Assembly (NCBI RefSeq): GCF_000269605.1
Contig: NZ_AKCI01000001.1
Coordinates: 434,001 to 498,000, forward strand
Direction: 5' to 3'
From: Scardovia wiggsiae F0424
Lineage (GTDB): Bacteria; Actinomycetota; Actinomycetes; Actinomycetales; Bifidobacteriaceae
DNA: 64,000 nucleotides
Within the stretch, counting starts at the first letter, position 1, and each line of letters starts with the position of its first letter. Shown here piece after piece: positions 7,718 to 21,211 of the stretch. The notes beneath the pieces are model-generated. The model was given only the letters and a program-made list of their open reading frames with translations. It searched no databases and was not told the origin of the DNA. The position numbers and the translations under genes are program-made.

Positions 7718-9277
7718 ATGTCTGGAACAGATACCCTCCTTCAGATGAAAAATATCACCAAAACATTCGGTCCGGTGAAGGCGCTGACTGATGTCAATCT
7801 TGATGTCAAACGCGGCGAGATACATGCTGTCTGCGGAGAAAACGGTGCCGGGAAATCGACCCTTATGAATGTGCTGTCAGGCGTATATCCTCACGGTACT
7901 TATTCAGGCGACATCATTTTTGACGGACAGGCCTGCGAGTTCAGGAATATCAAGGCATCTGAAGAGCTTGGGATAGTAATAATACATCAGGAGCTTGCAT
8001 TAAGCCCGTTCCTGTCGATTGCAGAAAATATCTTTATGGGCAATGAACAGGGTTCTCGCGGTGTGGTCGACTGGAATGCGACACGTTCGCGTGCGCAGGC
8101 CCTGCTTAGCCGCGTTGGGCTTGATGAAGACCCTTCACGGCTGATAATGGATATCGGCGTTGGCAAGCAGCAGCTGGTAGAGATCGCTAAAGCACTGTCC
8201 AAAGATGTCAAGCTCCTGATCCTTGACGAACCGACTGCGGCGCTTAATGATGAGGACTCGGCGCACCTTCTTCAGCTTATGCGGGAACTGCGCGATGACC
8301 ATGGCGTAACGAGCATCATTATTACACATAAGCTTAATGAGATCGCTGCGATTGCCGATAATGTCACCGTTATCCGTGATGGGTCCACGGTGGGCAGCAT
8401 GCATGTAACCGCTGATAATCCTCTCGACCAGGATGAGCTGATCAGGCTTATGGTGGGCCGTCCGCTGCACAACCTGTATCCCAGGCATGAACCGCATATC
8501 GGACAGGAAGTGCTGGCTGTAAAAGACTGGACAGTCCATCATGCGCTTGATACCGGCCGCATTGTTGTAGACCATGCCAATATCAGCGTCCGTAAAGGTG
8601 AGATTGTTGGGCTTGCAGGGCTTATGGGTGCGGGGAGGACTGAGTTTGCCATGAGCGTATTCGGCCATTCCTATGGCTCGGGGATATCCGGGGAAGTGTT
8701 TATCCACGGCAGGCCGGTAACGATGAAAACTCCGGAAAGCGCTATCAGTGCGGGGCTGGCATATGCTACGGAAGACAGGAAAGCCTATGGGCTTAACCTT
8801 CTTCAGAACATACGCGAGAATGCATCGCTGGCGTCCCTGCGCGAACTGTCAAAATTCGGTGTGATCGACTCCAATGTGGAACGCAAGGAAGTAGAACATT
8901 ACAGAGGTGCTTTCAATATCAAATCAACAAGTATTGAAGTCCCTGTATCAACGCTTTCCGGCGGGAACCAGCAGAAAGTCGTTCTGTCGAAATGGGTCCT
9001 TTCAGACCCGGATATCCTTATCCTGGATGAACCGACACGCGGCATAGATGTTGGCGCTAAGTTTGAAATATATGAGATCATTGAAGGCCTTGCTGATTCA
9101 GGGAAGGCGATCATATTCATTTCTTCAGAGCTTCCTGAGCTTATTGGCGTGTGCGACAGGATATACACAGTAAGCCAGGGGGTAGTCACTGCAAATATTG
9201 AGAGGAAAGATTTCTCTCAGGAATACCTTATGAAATTTATGACAAAAGAAAAGGAAAGGAAAGGGGTTTCCCAATGA
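7718..9277 (+). CDS. mmsA: Multiple-monosaccharide ABC transporter ATP-binding protein (MmsA/GguA)
   Basis: Cytoplasmic ATPase of 519 aa that powers the ChvE-type importer. It has two ABC domains in one chain, the usual CUT2 form. The first has Walker A GENGAGKST near residue 39 and Walker B LLILDEPTAAL. The second has the signature TLSGGNQQKV near 415 and LILDEPTRGIDVG near 436. The second domain has the degenerate Walker A (GLMGAGRTE) normal for this family. The open frame begins at 7637, but the ATG at 7718 is preceded by GGGGAAG and fits the family N-terminus (LLQMKNITKTFG). Its stop overlaps the permease start by 4 nt. Confidence 0.93.
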   Translation: MSGTDTLLQMKNITKTFGPVKALTDVNLDVKRGEIHAVCGENGAGKSTLMNVLSGVYPHGTYSGDIIFDGQACEFRNIKASEELGIVIIHQELALSPFLSIAENIFMGNEQGSRGVVDWNATRSRAQALLSRVGLDEDPSRLIMDIGVGKQQLVEIAKALSKDVKLLILDEPTAALNDEDSAHLLQLMRELRDDHGVTSIIITHKLNEIAAIADNVTVIRDGSTVGSMHVTADNPLDQDELIRLMVGRPLHNLYPRHEPHIGQEVLAVKDWTVHHALDTGRIVVDHANISVRKGEIVGLAGLMGAGRTEFAMSVFGHSYGSGISGEVFIHGRPVTMKTPESAISAGLAYATEDRKAYGLNLLQNIRENASLASLRELSKFGVIDSNVERKEVEHYRGAFNIKSTSIEVPVSTLSGGNQQKVVLSKWVLSDPDILILDEPTRGIDVGAKFEIYEIIEGLADSGKAIIFISSELPELIGVCDRIYTVSQGVVTANIERKDFSQEYLMKFMTKEKERKGVSQ

Positions 9278-10536
9278 GCTCCGCAAATGTCAGTGTGGAA
9301 AAGAAGGGCAATGCATCGCAGCCCGATAGGGGAGGCCGGAAGCATCCGCAGAGAAGGCAGGAGTCGCTTGTAGCATCGATTACAGGCAATCTGCGCCAGT
9401 ACGGTATTGTCGGCGCCCTTGTTGTTATTGTCATTGCCTTCCAGATCCTTACGGGAGGCGTACTCCTCAAGCCTAACTCGTTCGTATCCCTTATCCAGCA
9501 GAATGCTTATGTGATCATACTTGCTATCGGCATGGTGATGGTTATTATTGCCACGCAGATCGATCTGAGCGTGGGGTCGCTTGTTGCCTTTATCGGCGGG
9601 GTGTGTGCCATCCTGATGCAGCATATGGGTATGAACTGGATCCTCGCGATTATCATAAGCCTTCTCGTGGGACTGGTAATCGGTGTCTGGCAGGGGTTCT
9701 GGGTAGCCTTCGTGGGGATCCCGGGATTCATCACGACGCTGGCCGGCATGCTCATGTTCCGCGGCCTGGCAACGGTGATCGTTGGCGAGTCTGTGCCTAT
9801 TACATCAGACTCTTTCCGTGGGATCGCACGGAACTATCTGCCGAATATCCTCGGGTTCTGGGGCGGGTTCGATGGGCTTACTATCGTCCTGGGGATCCTG
9901 TGCTTCGCCCTGTTCGTGTGGAGCCAGCTGCGCAACCGTAAGAAAGTTATCAAAGTGGGGCTTATCCCTGAAGCGATGAGCCTGACGGTCATCAAAATCG
10001 TCGTCGCTGCCCTGGTGATAGGGTTCGTAACATATCTGCTGGCATCCTCGGGCAACAGCACTGAAGGCGGGACGCCGATCATGCTTGTTATCGTTGCTGT
10101 CCTTGTAGTGGTATACCAGTTCATCCTGAGCAGGACGGTTTTCGGCCGGCATGTCTATGCCCGGGGCGGGAACCGCAGGGCTGCGGAACTGTCCGGTGTT
10201 AACACCAAGATGGTTGATTTTATCCTGTATATCCATATGGGCTTCCTTTCTGCCGTAGCCGCTATTGCGATGCTGTCCCGCCTGGCGTCTGCTACTGCGC
10301 AGGCAGGTATGGAGTTTGAGATGGATGCTATTGCGGCATGCTTCATCGGCGGTACGGCTGTTACCGGCGGTATCGGCACTATACCCGGTGCCGTGATTGG
10401 TGCGCTGGTTATGGGTGTTATCAACCAGGGCCTGTCGATCATGGGTGTTGATACGGCTATTGTAAAAACGATCAAAGGCCTTGTCCTGCTCCTCGCAGTT
10501 GCCTTCGATCTGCTGAGCAAGAGGAAGAAGGCATAA
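9274..10536 (+). CDS. mmsB: Multiple-monosaccharide ABC transporter permease (MmsB/GguB)
   Basis: Integral membrane permease of 420 aa, the last gene of the sugar operon. A polar N-terminus of about 45 residues precedes roughly ten hydrophobic helices. CUT2 permease landmarks are present: IDLSVGSLVAF near 91, the loop PGFITTLAGML, and the GGTAVTGGIGTIPGAVIGA segment near 363. Length is as expected for GguB. Start and preceding stop share ATGA, so it is coupled to the ATPase gene. A strong terminator follows at 10627. Confidence 0.93.
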   Translation: MSSANVSVEKKGNASQPDRGGRKHPQRRQESLVASITGNLRQYGIVGALVVIVIAFQILTGGVLLKPNSFVSLIQQNAYVIILAIGMVMVIIATQIDLSVGSLVAFIGGVCAILMQHMGMNWILAIIISLLVGLVIGVWQGFWVAFVGIPGFITTLAGMLMFRGLATVIVGESVPITSDSFRGIARNYLPNILGFWGGFDGLTIVLGILCFALFVWSQLRNRKKVIKVGLIPEAMSLTVIKIVVAALVIGFVTYLLASSGNSTEGGTPIMLVIVAVLVVVYQFILSRTVFGRHVYARGGNRRAAELSGVNTKMVDFILYIHMGFLSAVAAIAMLSRLASATAQAGMEFEMDAIAACFIGGTAVTGGIGTIPGAVIGALVMGVINQGLSIMGVDTAIVKTIKGLVLLLAVAFDLLSKRKKA

Positions 10537-10626: not shown

Positions 10627-10659
10627 GGGCTGCTGTCGGCTGACAGCAGCCCTTTTTTT
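10627..10659 (+). terminator. Terminator of the sugar uptake operon
   Basis: Perfect 11-bp stem GGGCTGCTGTC/GACAGCAGCCC with a GGCT loop and seven T residues. The 341-bp gap 10537-10877 contains this and the palindromic element that follows; nothing else was recognised. Confidence 0.95.
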
Positions 10660-10718: not shown

Positions 10719-10801
10719 CTGGTGGTAAAACACGCAGATACAAAAAATAAAATGTGGAAAACCGCCGAAAATAATTTTGTATCTGCGTGTTTTACCACCA
10801 G
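10719..10801 (+). repeat. Palindromic repeat element, copy 1
   Basis: Perfect 27-bp inverted repeats (10719-10745 and 10775-10801), containing TGGTAAAACACGCAGATAC, flank a 29-bp core. A second copy lies at 18519-18598. The core resembles the second copy only when that copy is inverted (shared blocks AAAA, TGT, GGAAA, CCG, AAAA in order). This marks a true element with an orientation and not two independent hairpins. It is intergenic, between the sugar operon terminator and the 3' end of thiN. No target-site duplication was evident. Confidence 0.9.
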
Positions 10802-10877: not shown

Positions 10878-11681
10878 CTAATGAGCCAGATGGCTGGAAA
10901 CAGCTGTACTCATGGCGCCCAGCGATTTTGCAGGGTCACGCTGTGTAACAACAGTCGGATAGGGGGCTTCGCTGGGATATGTAATAAGCAGCGTCCCGGA
11001 AGAAACCTCTATAGAAGACTTAGTATCGCCGACAAATTCGTTACGGGATCCGAAATCGTTGATGCTCTTCACAGTTGCATGGTCCAGCCCGTATTTCAGG
11101 CCGGTTACAGATACGTCTGTGCATACATCGCTGTATGCGAAAATAGAAACCATCCTGCGGGGGGCCACATAGCCGTGAGGGAATTCCATCCTGGCATCGC
11201 ATATTGCTGTTACTATCGTATGGTCGCCATGGAGGAAAGCGATACCGCCGGACTGTGCAATCAGCGCAAGTATAGTCATGCTGGATATTGTATGGTCGAT
11301 CTGCCTGCCGAGTGCCCCATAAATATCAAACTGGTGCAGGCCTTTATCCCATGCATATTTTACTGCTGCTGAGAGGTCTGTATCATCTTTCTGCGACGGC
11401 AGGGTAATAATATCTGTATCCTCTGCCAGTGACCCCGCTGCCGCCGGATCTGCCAGGGAATCATTATCGCCGATAAGGGCATGGGGGGTGGCTCCTGCCG
11501 CCAGCGCATAATCAAGCCCTCCGTCTGCAGCTATAACATACGAAGTTTTGTCGAGATAAGGTATTTCCTCGTAGTATTCGCCTGCCGCGAAAATCGCACA
11601 GCGCGTGAACACCGGGGAAGATATCCCGCGATATCCGTGCGGACCACCTGCAGTGGACGGAGAACCGGTCAGTTGTGCCAT
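10878..11681 (-). CDS. thiN: Thiamine pyrophosphokinase
   Basis: Transfers pyrophosphate from ATP to thiamine to make the cofactor thiamine diphosphate; cytoplasmic, 267 aa from the chosen start. Family motifs are AAGEYY near the N-terminus, AADGGLDYALAAG, the metal-binding GDNDSLAD, QKDDTDLSAA and the substrate region GALGRQIDHT. The open frame reaches 11762, overlapping the divergent gene. The ATG at 11681 has TATACT ending six bases upstream and no ribosome site, so a leaderless start is favoured; the ATG at 11714 is an alternative. No riboswitch was seen. Confidence 0.88.
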   Translation of the reverse strand: MAQLTGSPSTAGGPHGYRGISSPVFTRCAIFAAGEYYEEIPYLDKTSYVIAADGGLDYALAAGATPHALIGDNDSLADPAAAGSLAEDTDIITLPSQKDDTDLSAAVKYAWDKGLHQFDIYGALGRQIDHTISSMTILALIAQSGGIAFLHGDHTIVTAICDARMEFPHGYVAPRRMVSIFAYSDVCTDVSVTGLKYGLDHATVKSINDFGSRNEFVGDTKSSIEVSSGTLLITYPSEAPYPTVVTQRDPAKSLGAMSTAVSSHLAH

Positions 11682-11687
11682 ATGTTC

Positions 11688-11693
11688 AGTATA
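11688..11693 (-). promoter_or_regulatory. -10 element for leaderless thiN mRNA
   Basis: Minus-strand TATACT with six bases before the thiN ATG at 11681 and no Shine-Dalgarno sequence. The spacing is identical to that at the ROK gene. Confidence 0.5.
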
Positions 11694-11740
11694 AAAGGCT
11701 TTCAGTATATTCATATAATTATGATCTGCCGCCGATGCTG

Positions 11741-11746
11741 TACAGT
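11741..11746 (+). promoter_or_regulatory. -10 element for leaderless HAD-gene mRNA
   Basis: TACAGT is followed by six bases and the ATG at 11753, which lacks a ribosome site. It is divergent from the thiN promoter inside a 71-bp gap. Confidence 0.45.
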
Positions 11747-11752
11747 TATACC

Positions 11753-12547
11753 ATGCGCACAATTACTTCAGTATTCTTTGATATTGACGGGACCCTGACA
11801 AGCTTTGCAACGAATGATGTCCCGCGGTCTGCCCGTGATGCAGTTGAGATATGCAGGCAGAAGGGTATCAAAACAGCGCTTGCAACAGGGCGTTCGCCTC
11901 AGGAGCTCCAGGCAGTGCAGCGTACGCTTGATATGGATTTTGACGGCTGTGTCTGCATGACAGGCCAGATAGCATACGACGGGAAAGGCACTTACAGGGA
12001 TGAATATCTGAAACACGAAGAAATAGAGCTGTTCATCAGCTATCTCCAGGACCATCCTGATATCAGCGTACATTTTTCTGAAAGGGATTACGGATATTTT
12101 AACCGTATCGGTGCCGAGGTTACGAAGCTGTACAAGGATCTTGGAGGAACTGTTGATAAGGCGGTAATTGATGATCCGATGCGTGCCCTGGATCACAATA
12201 TATACCAGTTCAGCATGTTTGTCCCGCTTGATGTCGAAAGGGAGCTGGATACGATGTTTACCCATATCCGTCCTGTTCGGTGGCATCCTGATTTTGCTGA
12301 TTTTATCCCTGCGGACGGCGGCAAAGATAAGGGGATACAGGCCATGCTTGATGCATGGGGCCTCAGCCGGGAAGGCTGCGTCGTATTTGGGGATGGCGGC
12401 AATGATATTGACATGCTTGATTACGCAGGTATCGGTGTAGCGATGGGGAATGCGCATCTGTCCGTTAAATCACATGCTGATTATGTCACCCAGAGTGTCG
12501 ATGATGACGGGGTGTACAAGGCACTTGAACATTTCGGCATAGTGTAG
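11753..12547 (+). CDS. HAD-superfamily phosphatase, Cof/YbiV-like
   Basis: A 264-aa cytoplasmic phosphatase of the Cof subfamily, whose members dephosphorylate sugar phosphates, FMN or similar small molecules. Motif I is FDIDGTLTSF with the nucleophile Asp10; motif II lies in ALATGRS; motif IV is FGDGGNDIDML near residue 211. A cap domain occupies the middle, as in Cof proteins. The frame is open from 11675, but ATG 11753 places motif I at the normal distance from the N-terminus. The gene is divergent from thiN; the true substrate is not deducible. Confidence 0.88.
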   Translation: MRTITSVFFDIDGTLTSFATNDVPRSARDAVEICRQKGIKTALATGRSPQELQAVQRTLDMDFDGCVCMTGQIAYDGKGTYRDEYLKHEEIELFISYLQDHPDISVHFSERDYGYFNRIGAEVTKLYKDLGGTVDKAVIDDPMRALDHNIYQFSMFVPLDVERELDTMFTHIRPVRWHPDFADFIPADGGKDKGIQAMLDAWGLSREGCVVFGDGGNDIDMLDYAGIGVAMGNAHLSVKSHADYVTQSVDDDGVYKALEHFGIV

Positions 12548-18017: not shown

Positions 18018-18398
18018 ATGGCACGTGTAAAACGCGCAGTGAATGCACATAAGAAGCGTCGTACAGTACTTGAACGCGCATCCGGCTATCGCGGCCAGCG
18101 CTCACGCCTTTACCGCAAGGCTAAGGAACAGCTCCTGCACTCCTTTAACTACAACTTCCGTGACCGCAAGGCGCGCAAAGGGGATTTCCGCAAACTGTGG
18201 ATCACCCGTATCAATGTAGCTGTCCGTGCAGAAGGAATGACATATAACCGTTTTATCCAGGGGCTTCACCTGGCAGGTATTGAGCTTGACCGCCGAGCCC
18301 TGGCCGATATAGCTGTCAATGACCACGATACTTTTGTGGCCATTGTCAAAGAGGCCAAAAAAGCGCTTCCGAAAGATGTCAATGCTCCAGTAAAGTAG
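18018..18398 (+). CDS. rplT: Ribosomal protein bL20
   Basis: A 126-aa RNA-binding protein needed for early assembly of the 50S subunit and, in many bacteria, a repressor of its own operon. The family pattern is clear: [14 protein letters not shown] at the N-terminus, [30 protein letters not shown] and YNRFIQGL. It is the last gene of the infC operon, 77 nt after rpmI, with GACGAGGA before the ATG and a terminator 26 nt downstream. Confidence 0.97.
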
Positions 18399-18423: not shown

Positions 18424-18458
18424 AATGGGGGAACAGCACTTATGCTGTTCCCCCATTT
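18424..18458 (+). terminator. Terminator of infC-rpmI-rplT
   Basis: A 15-bp perfect stem (18424-18438 with 18443-18457) and a CTTA loop, with a short T-rich end. The 438-bp gap 18399-18836 contains this, palindromic element copy 2 and a 14-bp palindrome. Confidence 0.85.
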
Positions 18459-18518
18459 CATATGCGGCAGCATCCATTCCCCGTGAAATAGTTCCCTTTT
18501 ATTTTTGTATTTGTTCCT

Positions 18519-18598
18519 GGTGGTAAAACACGCAGATACAAAAAATGTTTTGCCGGTTTCCTACAGTTTTCATTTTTGTATCTGCGTGTTTTACCACC
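18519..18598 (-). repeat. Palindromic repeat element, copy 2
   Basis: 26-bp perfect arms (18519-18544 and 18573-18598) with the same sequence as copy 1, and a 28-bp core. The core aligns to copy 1 after inversion, so this copy is reversed. It is intergenic, after the rplT terminator and before the fructokinase gene. Confidence 0.9.
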
Positions 18599-18680
18599 GG
18601 AGGGTGTACACAGTACGGACATCATTGGTTAAAAATAGGGTGGGGGATGACCAGCCAGCTGTTCCTTTCATAAAAACCTA

Positions 18681-18694: not shown

Positions 18695-18836
18695 CAGATT
18701 TATCATAACCGAGCTGATTCAGGAGTACCATGGGAAGTACAGTATGCTAGAGCCGGCAGGCTTAGTGGCATGAAAGTCTCATTGAATGGCGGCATGCCTC
18801 AATGGCGGTTCGCCTTCAAAAATAGAAAGGAAACCG

Positions 18837-19754
18837 ATGAGTGATCCGGTTCAGTCAGATAATAAACACGTTGTTGTAGCTTTGGGCGAGCTCTTGTGGG
18901 ATATGCTTCCCAGCGGCAAGCGGGCAGGCGGCGCCCCTACTAATTTTTGTTACCATGCGATGAAAAACGGTGCTGATGGGTACGCTGTAAGTGCGCTTGG
19001 TGAGGATTCCCTTGGCGACGAGCTCGAAGGCGAGATCAAAAAGGCCGGGATCAAGCATGTTATCAAGCGTAACGCATACCCGACAGGTACTGTGGAAGTC
19101 CATCTCAACGAGGGGATCCCGACGTATGACATCGTTAAAGATGTTGCCTGGGACCATATCCCCTTCACTAAGGATATGGTCGATCTGATCAGGCAGGCTG
19201 ATGCAGTGTGCTATGGCACGCTGGCATGCCGCGGGCAGGAGTCCCATGATACTATTATGCGCCTTCTTGACCGTGTGAGGCCAGGCACGATGAAGTATTT
19301 TGACATTAATCTCCGCGGGGATTTCTATTCAAAGATACTTATTGAAGAGCAGCTTGAATCTGCAACGGTTTTCAAGATCAACGACGAAGAGATATCACAG
19401 CTGCAGACGATGTTCAGCATCCCCGGGACGGTTGAGGAAGTTGCGAAATGGTTCCTCAAGGAATATGACCTGGATTACGTTATCCTCACTGCAGGAGGCG
19501 AATATTCCCAGGTATTTGCGGCTGACGGGAGGGAATCAAAAGTTGCGACCCCTCATGTGGAAGTCGCTGATACCGTTGGTGCAGGGGATTCTTTCTCCGG
19601 AGTGTTCTGTATTGAGATGCTCAAAGGTACCCCGCTTCATGAAGCGCATAAGCGTGCTGTTAATGTGGCTGCTTTTGTCTGCACTAAGGCCGGCGCATGG
19701 CCAGAATACCCGGAGGAGTTACCTGATTACGTCGTTGAGCAGGGGCTTGAGTAG
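18837..19754 (+). CDS. PfkB-family carbohydrate kinase, probable fructokinase
   Basis: Cytoplasmic sugar kinase of 305 aa. The PfkB signature near the start (GGAPTNFCYHAMKNGADG) and the catalytic motif DTVGAGDSFSGVF near residue 246 are intact. The pattern LGELLWDMLPSGKRAGGAP is that of bacterial ScrK-type fructokinases, which make fructose 6-phosphate. The ATG at 18837 has GAAAGG before it; the open frame starts earlier at 18786. A sugar transporter of the MFS family follows by 60 nt, so the pair forms a small uptake-and-phosphorylation unit. The substrate is inferred. Confidence 0.9.
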   Translation: MSDPVQSDNKHVVVALGELLWDMLPSGKRAGGAPTNFCYHAMKNGADGYAVSALGEDSLGDELEGEIKKAGIKHVIKRNAYPTGTVEVHLNEGIPTYDIVKDVAWDHIPFTKDMVDLIRQADAVCYGTLACRGQESHDTIMRLLDRVRPGTMKYFDINLRGDFYSKILIEEQLESATVFKINDEEISQLQTMFSIPGTVEEVAKWFLKEYDLDYVILTAGGEYSQVFAADGRESKVATPHVEVADTVGAGDSFSGVFCIEMLKGTPLHEAHKRAVNVAAFVCTKAGAWPEYPEELPDYVVEQGLE

Positions 19755-21127: not shown

Positions 21128-21211
21128 AAAAACCGCATTGCAGGACGGTTTCTGTCCCCGCAGGATTAGCTGCTGGGGGGGGGGTAGCCTGTCGCCTGCA
21201 GTGCGGTTTTT
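21128..21211 (+). terminator. Long-loop terminator with G10 tract
   Basis: Arms 21128-21144 and 21195-21211 form a 17-bp stem with one G-T wobble. A-run and T-run ends make it usable in both directions. The 50-nt loop contains ten consecutive G residues (21175-21184). It closes the fructokinase/MFS unit just before xerD. Confidence 0.7.

Follow-up and report, generated by a model that had tools for sequence, protein, structure and literature searches.

Correia-like and ERIC-like MITEs are short, palindromic, intergenic and dispersed, as are the elements described here, and we are not aware that either has been described as bracketing a Vsr-type gene. Three further systems come close to what we observed.

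REPINs, as set out in PMC3116915, are doublets of REP sequences that form hairpins and are accompanied by a REP-associated tyrosine transposase (RAYT), and release or copying of the hairpin has been proposed for this pair. REP sequences themselves are defined in PMC3733652 as short palindromes tagged with GTAG or CGTC. AbiEi, the antitoxin of the type IV toxin-antitoxin system AbiE, and Rv2827c autoregulate through inverted repeats in their own promoters, according to PMC7319586. The third is the Vsr-like homing endonuclease I-Bth0305I. In literature searches on DUF559, MTES_1575, AbiEi, Vsr, RAYT and REPIN, and on repeats of Bifidobacterium and Microbacterium, we recognized no paper linking a Vsr/DUF559-type gene to such palindromes.

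The window, i.e., the whole analysed stretch of 64,000 nucleotides, comes from the 1.55 Mb genome of Scardovia wiggsiae F0424 (hereafter G000). It carries two intergenic palindromes that a preliminary description had singled out for their perfect terminal inverted repeats of 26–27 bp, and both repeats are indeed fully complementary. Copy 1 (10719..10801, + strand; defined as forward, with a purine-rich core on this strand) was resolved by an inverted-repeat scan into a left arm (10719..10745, +), an oriented core (10746..10774, +) and a right arm (10775..10801, −) that is a perfect inverted repeat of the left one; the arms are 27 nt long, 100% complementary and separated by 29 nt. Copy 2 (18517..18600, −) lies in the opposite orientation. 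Its arms (18519–18544 and 18573–18598) are 26 nt long, 100% complementary and 28 nt apart, with a mismatch at the next outer pair. The core of copy 2 (18545..18572, −) aligns with that of copy 1 once it is inverted: the two are then 63% identical, as opposed to 37% without inversion, which agrees with the oriented core claimed previously. The window has four arm matches, where shuffled sequence would give 0.02.

Copy 1 is situated between a multiple-monosaccharide ABC permease gene (GguB; 9274..10536, +) and a convergent thiamine diphosphokinase gene (10878..11762, −), and copy 2 between the gene of ribosomal protein L20 (rplT; 18018..18398, +) and that of a PfkB-family sugar kinase (18786..19754, +; all matches under curated cut-offs). 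The setting reported earlier is confirmed in part. Both copies are preceded by a terminator-like inverted repeat: the one between the permease gene and copy 1 (10627..10659, +), read from the sequence, has a T run behind it, and the one between rplT and copy 2 (18424..18457, +) was located by the inverted-repeat scan. Two other palindromes were seen in the window: an 84 bp inverted repeat of different sequence at 21128–21211 (arms of 17 nt with 94% complementarity around a 50 nt loop) and a perfect hairpin at 690–733 with an 18 nt stem and an 8 nt loop.

When the left arm was searched for in the whole genome with up to 3 mismatches, it returned 23 forward and 23 reverse matches; the reversed pattern gave 0. 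Altogether, 42 of the 46 matches form 21 two-armed elements of 83–85 bp, and the remaining four are one solo arm (1176521) and three unpaired matches with 3 mismatches. Arm identity over all copy pairs is 94%. For the cores of all 21 elements, identity equals 0.66 when they are oriented, compared with 0.37 when anti-oriented and 0.50 ± 0.005 when shuffled. The preliminary description had derived both copies from one oriented sequence of about 80 bp and had allowed that further copies or core conservation might be lacking; the genome holds 21 copies with conserved, oriented cores, in line with a single family.

In this unannotated genome the elements appear dispersed and intergenic. Most of them are overlapped by open frames of 55–369 aa, which for the greater part are short or are open 5′ ends and which, apart from the linked gene described below, are not established genes. 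Their orientation relative to neighbouring frames is mixed, and inspection by eye of the 21 pairs of flanks revealed no evident direct repeat at the element ends. The solo arm (L036, about 1522–1540; G000:C1:1176521) has one mismatch and is followed by a strong unrelated hairpin; its intergenic region is orthologous to one that holds an element in another species of the genus.

The exact arm was absent from named genomes and from collections of viral contigs, plasmids and phages, from which the closest records were possibly excluded. Among 59 genomes (the source genome and 58 relatives), it was present only in G000 and G001. Long-hairpin scans over 200 kb each of the other two genomes of the genus, G001 and G002, revealed that both have their own palindrome families with the same layout as in G000 and with unrelated arm sequences. 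Thus, the search in relatives suggested in the preliminary description recovered the layout in both sister species, but with different arms. Whole-genome searches yielded 9 forward and 9 reverse matches in each of them, and 10 (G001) and 9 (G002) two-armed elements were extracted. Neither arm was found in the other two genomes of the genus (at 3 and 2 mismatches, respectively). The G001 arm ends in CTAC/GTAG.

Apart from its own family, G001 has one element of the G000 type. It lies within a 1,597 bp segment (L031 1–1597; L042) that is 95.3% identical to G000, as against 66–82% for the longer matches in another compared region of these otherwise distant species. Judging by this identity, the segment is apparently a recent transfer that carried one element along. 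It also contains a pyridine-nucleotide oxidoreductase-like gene, named by eye. The G000-type element has not multiplied in G001, as would be expected if a cognate protein were needed for its spread.

To compare sites, we aligned with tblastx the stretches around 20 elements of G000, 10 of G001 and 8 of G002, mostly 1.5 kb on each side. One intergenic region, upstream of a Vsr/DUF559-type gene, is occupied by an element in G000 as well as in G001, and the solo arm of G000 stands opposite an element of G002. In two further cases, elements of two species are close to the same gene but in different gaps; these are copy 1 of the window with the element of G001 at 1057 kb, and the elements of G000 at 1395 kb and of G002 at 352 kb. 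At the site of copy 2, the flanking DNA of G001 and G002 was too divergent to align as an empty site.

The Vsr/DUF559-type gene turned out to be the common neighbour. In 3 of 3 species, an element is located just upstream of a homologous gene of this type (G000, L202; G001, L201; G002, L200), in G000 and G001 no more than about 80 bp from the start codon (assigned by eye). The G000 gene lies outside the window, at about 951.2–952.2 kb. An element was detected on one side only of the G000 gene; the G002 gene has elements on both sides. The homologous proteins of G001 and G002 are 49% and 37% identical to that of G000. The ends of these proteins resemble DUF559/REase_MTES_1575, with E 6.6e-6 for G002 and a weak match, below the cut-off, for G000 (E 0.006). 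PF04480 matches 68 of 151 genomes of the family and misses the linked G000 gene, which scores under the threshold.

Two paralogues of G002 have different arms, TATACGAAACGAGGTTA (9 two-armed elements) and AAGTGGCACTCAACGCA (5), and two paralogues of G116 likewise have two different arms beside them. Hairpins with gene-specific arms occur near many of these genes, and on both sides of the gene at L186, L193, L199, L200, L204 and L205; one hairpin at L186 overlaps with the gene's stop-to-stop frame. No hairpin was found at other copies, among them L196 (the second G000 paralogue), L198 (the third of G002), L214 and L215. The RAYT-type transposase Y1_Tnp (PF01797) has 0 matches in G000, G001 and G002. 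It matches 8 of the 151 family genomes, and 2 of 13 Y1_Tnp loci (L216–L228) are accompanied by a hairpin, in each case with a 10 nt loop.

The fold of the linked protein was predicted for a B. subtile relative rather than for the G000 protein itself (pLDDT 89.7, with residues 1–19 under 50) and compared with a set of listed fold families. Residues 34–193 of the model match AbiEi 6y8q (Z 10.0 over 128 residues, rmsd 3.6), and residues 196–302 match I-Bth0305I (Z 11.3), 3hrl (Z 10.8) and Vsr 1cw0 (Z 8.9). The same C-terminal part is also matched by two mitoribosomal proteins, with Z 10.1 and 9.7. A sequence-profile search also retrieved 3hrl (E 2.4e-5), and the alignment of linked proteins has conserved D, E, H and D columns; with Foldseek alone nothing reached E 0.001, the best match being PvuRts1I at 0.02. 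The model thus predicts an AbiEi-antitoxin-like domain followed by a Vsr-fold (Vsr/PD-(D/E)XK) nuclease domain. Seven neighbouring ORFs were scanned, taken from G000, G001, G002 and a single Microbacterium locus; none was a DUF1814 toxin, and two of the seven had no Pfam match.

We then asked how far the pairing of gene and palindrome extends. The first protein alignment was too divergent for searching, and a profile was built from a closer set; against named genomes it recovered 163 relatives, from which 79 loci were kept (29 from Bifidobacteriaceae and 50 from other actinobacteria). A hairpin with a score of at least 13 was present within 500 bp either side of the matched stretch at 18 of the 29 Bifidobacteriaceae loci, whereas 2000 draws of random positions from the same loci gave a mean of 2.68 and a maximum of 9. 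For the other actinobacteria, the count was 15 of 50 (random mean 2.25, maximum 8). Accordingly, 11 and 35 loci, respectively, had no such hairpin within that distance. The 1 kb immediately downstream contained a hairpin with a score of at least 15 at 17 of the 29 Bifidobacteriaceae loci, and the other 1 kb bins at 0 to 6.

Hairpins sharing an arm often enclose the gene. Among 30 same-arm pairs within 3 kb, 19 bracket it, and these are spread over 17 of the 79 loci. The 11 other pairs include three that make up one tandem array, one poly-C match and two that are one-sided beside the gene. Both hairpins are near the open frame at 11 of the 17 bracketed loci; at the other six (L229, L230, L231, L239, L242 and L282), the upstream partner is 1.3–1.8 kb away from it. 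A shared 10-mer was required for bracketing, which omits L234, though similar hairpins flank its gene. Since many of the Bifidobacterium loci are orthologues of one another, their counts are not independent, and by our own grouping the bracketed loci represent about eleven independent arm types.

The gene-adjacent arms are also multicopy. Bracketing arms of three Microbacterium genomes have 14, 64 and 32 forward matches (reversed control 0–2), and the same counting in six further Microbacteriaceae genomes gave 15, 6, 54, 53, 1 and 1. The Arsenicicoccus arm has 9 forward and 8 reverse matches in its genome and 0, 0, 0 and 2 matches in four others. In three close Bifidobacterium genomes, the gene-adjacent arm has 34–42 matches each versus 3–4 for controls. 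A larger relative occurs in g13, a genus of the same family as that of G000 which includes Bifidobacterium, and has doubled arms 42 bp apart; at least 7 matches to it were found in 13 of 151 genomes, all of them g13, and 1–3 matches in 15 more. Only one of these 13 carriers (G085) has Y1_Tnp. At L120, L138, L149, L165 and other g13 loci, there are two tandem arms per side with this 42 bp offset, and the inner spacings are mostly 92 or 103, near whole helical turns. Homology between the G000 and g13 arms through a common TATCTGCGT was considered and dropped, since the stretch points the opposite way relative to the element centre.

Short stand-alone DUF559 genes (L166–L182) have hairpins at 7 of 17 loci, several of them alike (GCTCCCCTC or TTCCCCTC type); this group is therefore no clean negative control and was not used as support. 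Two similar hairpins flank such a gene at L170 (1268–1351 and 1939–2072), and hairpins of the TTCCCCTC or GCTCCCCTC type are also present at L167 (1875–1960) and L171 (1278–1353).

Close Bifidobacterium genomes provided one clean presence/absence difference, a segment of 331 bp that has a 10 bp direct repeat and is missing from G127 and present in G104 (flanks 96.6% identical) and in the more distant G159 (about 90%). Given that the more distant genome has the element too, a deletion in G127 is simpler than an insertion, and loss is the preferred reading. New insertions were not seen in any of the comparisons. DNA facing the G159 element at 89 kb was unalignable in the other two, and at marmoset-type Bifidobacterium loci two aligned intergenic regions were too divergent for an empty-site comparison. 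Palindromes of other families were seen in these genomes as well. At L361 (2009–2340), an element of the ATATGTGGCAG type is seemingly nested in remnants of another palindromic family (GCTTAT..GGCGG type). Palindromes of the TGTCCGATTC type differ in presence between close Bifidobacterium genomes, with indels of 51, 317 and 75 bp, each containing such a hairpin, at L385 12301–12352, L384 13839–14156 and L359 8463–8538, and the hairpin is also found at L356 2678–2803.

How, then, should the palindromes be explained? They might be operators: the AbiEi-like domain would repress its own gene, and the dispersed copies would form a regulon that does not move. The predicted N-terminal fold, the autoregulation of AbiEi and Rv2827c through promoter repeats (PMC7319586), and the element in the upstream gap of the linked gene in all three genomes of the genus (G000, G001 and G002) fit this reading, as do the two further cases in which elements of two species occupy different gaps around the same gene. 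Elements downstream of the linked gene fit it less well, and within about 1.5 kb just one element-bearing intergenic region is common to G000 and G001, plus the solo arm opposite the G002 element. An operator has no need of a long oriented core either, and turnover of the arms and their dispersal to other sites are explained less well. We consider operators an unlikely explanation. Rather less probable still is a MITE family that depended on a conventional transposase, one since lost or with too few end bases in common for detection. The preliminary description suggested a miniature mobile element, and this was the better half of its guess: the terminal inverted repeats, the length of about 80 bp and the many dispersed copies agree with it, but they show no mark of an ordinary MITE. 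Neither G000 nor 58 relatives yielded a full-length element bearing such ends: in G000 the arm matches the palindromes themselves, apart from a solo arm and three weak matches, and the relatives add only the single copy of G001. Moreover, target duplication is not evident by eye in the G000 flanks, no Y1 transposase was found in the three genomes of the genus, and the same layout recurs with unrelated arms beside one gene family.

The other half of that guess, a conserved structured RNA, here a repeated transcribed hairpin acting on neighbouring transcripts, found no consistent support, and we regard it as the most improbable of the three. The proposed covariation check did yield a strand-specific pairing signal in the G000 family: five arm positions are changed in both arms with pairing kept, against 0.55 expected, and G-U outnumbers A-C by 17 to 3 on the oriented strand. 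The sister families disagree, with G-U to A-C ratios of 1 to 7 in G001 and 3 to 3 in G002. The mixed orientation to neighbouring frames also speaks against an RNA, as do the wholesale differences in arms between species, and an Rfam search of the window matched no family.

We consider it probable, on balance, that the elements are REPIN-like repeats with a linked AbiEi-like/Vsr-fold nuclease in place of a RAYT. The multicopy family and its species-specific arms were observed, as was, in several actinobacterial genera, the pairing of arm and nuclease-like gene. Linkage of gene and element does not in itself show catalysis, and we infer from these patterns that the elements are mobile and copied to new sites, and that the linked protein binds and cleaves their arms. 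The palindrome, with its conserved inverted ends and its oriented, more variable core, can form a long hairpin. AbiEi proteins bind inverted repeats of their own promoters (PMC7319586); the AbiEi-like part would be the one to recognize the arms, and the Vsr-like part could nick the element as a hairpin or cruciform. Nicking might release or copy the hairpin, so that copies would reach new intergenic sites, and arms and linked protein would change together. We put forward more tentatively, at slightly less than an even chance, that Actinobacteria have a second, independently evolved REPIN-like mobile class, with a domesticated AbiEi-Vsr nuclease, fast co-evolution of arm and protein, and species-specific sequences.

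If this is true, the dispersed palindromes and the large unexplained DUF559/AbiEi-like family of Actinobacteria explain each other, and genome parasites of the REPIN type have arisen a second time, with an unrelated enzyme. There would also be many natural protein/target pairs, two of them in one genome, for testing how repeats spread and are restrained.

In comparison with the REPIN-RAYT system as described in PMC3116915, the elements share conserved inverted ends, a variable spacer, extragenic location, multiple copies, lineage-specific arms and an adjoining gene. With regard to the REPIN hairpin, the G000 arms and cores are 94% and 66% identical, and the stems in the window are perfect over 26–27 bp. 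They differ from REPINs in that the linked protein is predicted to be AbiEi-like plus Vsr-fold rather than a Y1 HUH transposase, that the G000 consensus arm, read by eye, is without GTAG or CGTC on either strand, and that copies number about 5 to 70 where counted here, not hundreds. AbiE systems resemble them in the AbiEi-like N-terminal fold and the inverted repeats near the gene; here, in contrast, a nuclease-like domain is fused, and the scanned neighbours include no DUF1814 toxin. Finally, although the sites here are dispersed palindromes and the N-terminal domain is AbiEi-like, the linked gene resembles that of I-Bth0305I in the predicted fold of its catalytic domain (the Z of 11.3 given above) and in being tied to a particular DNA sequence.
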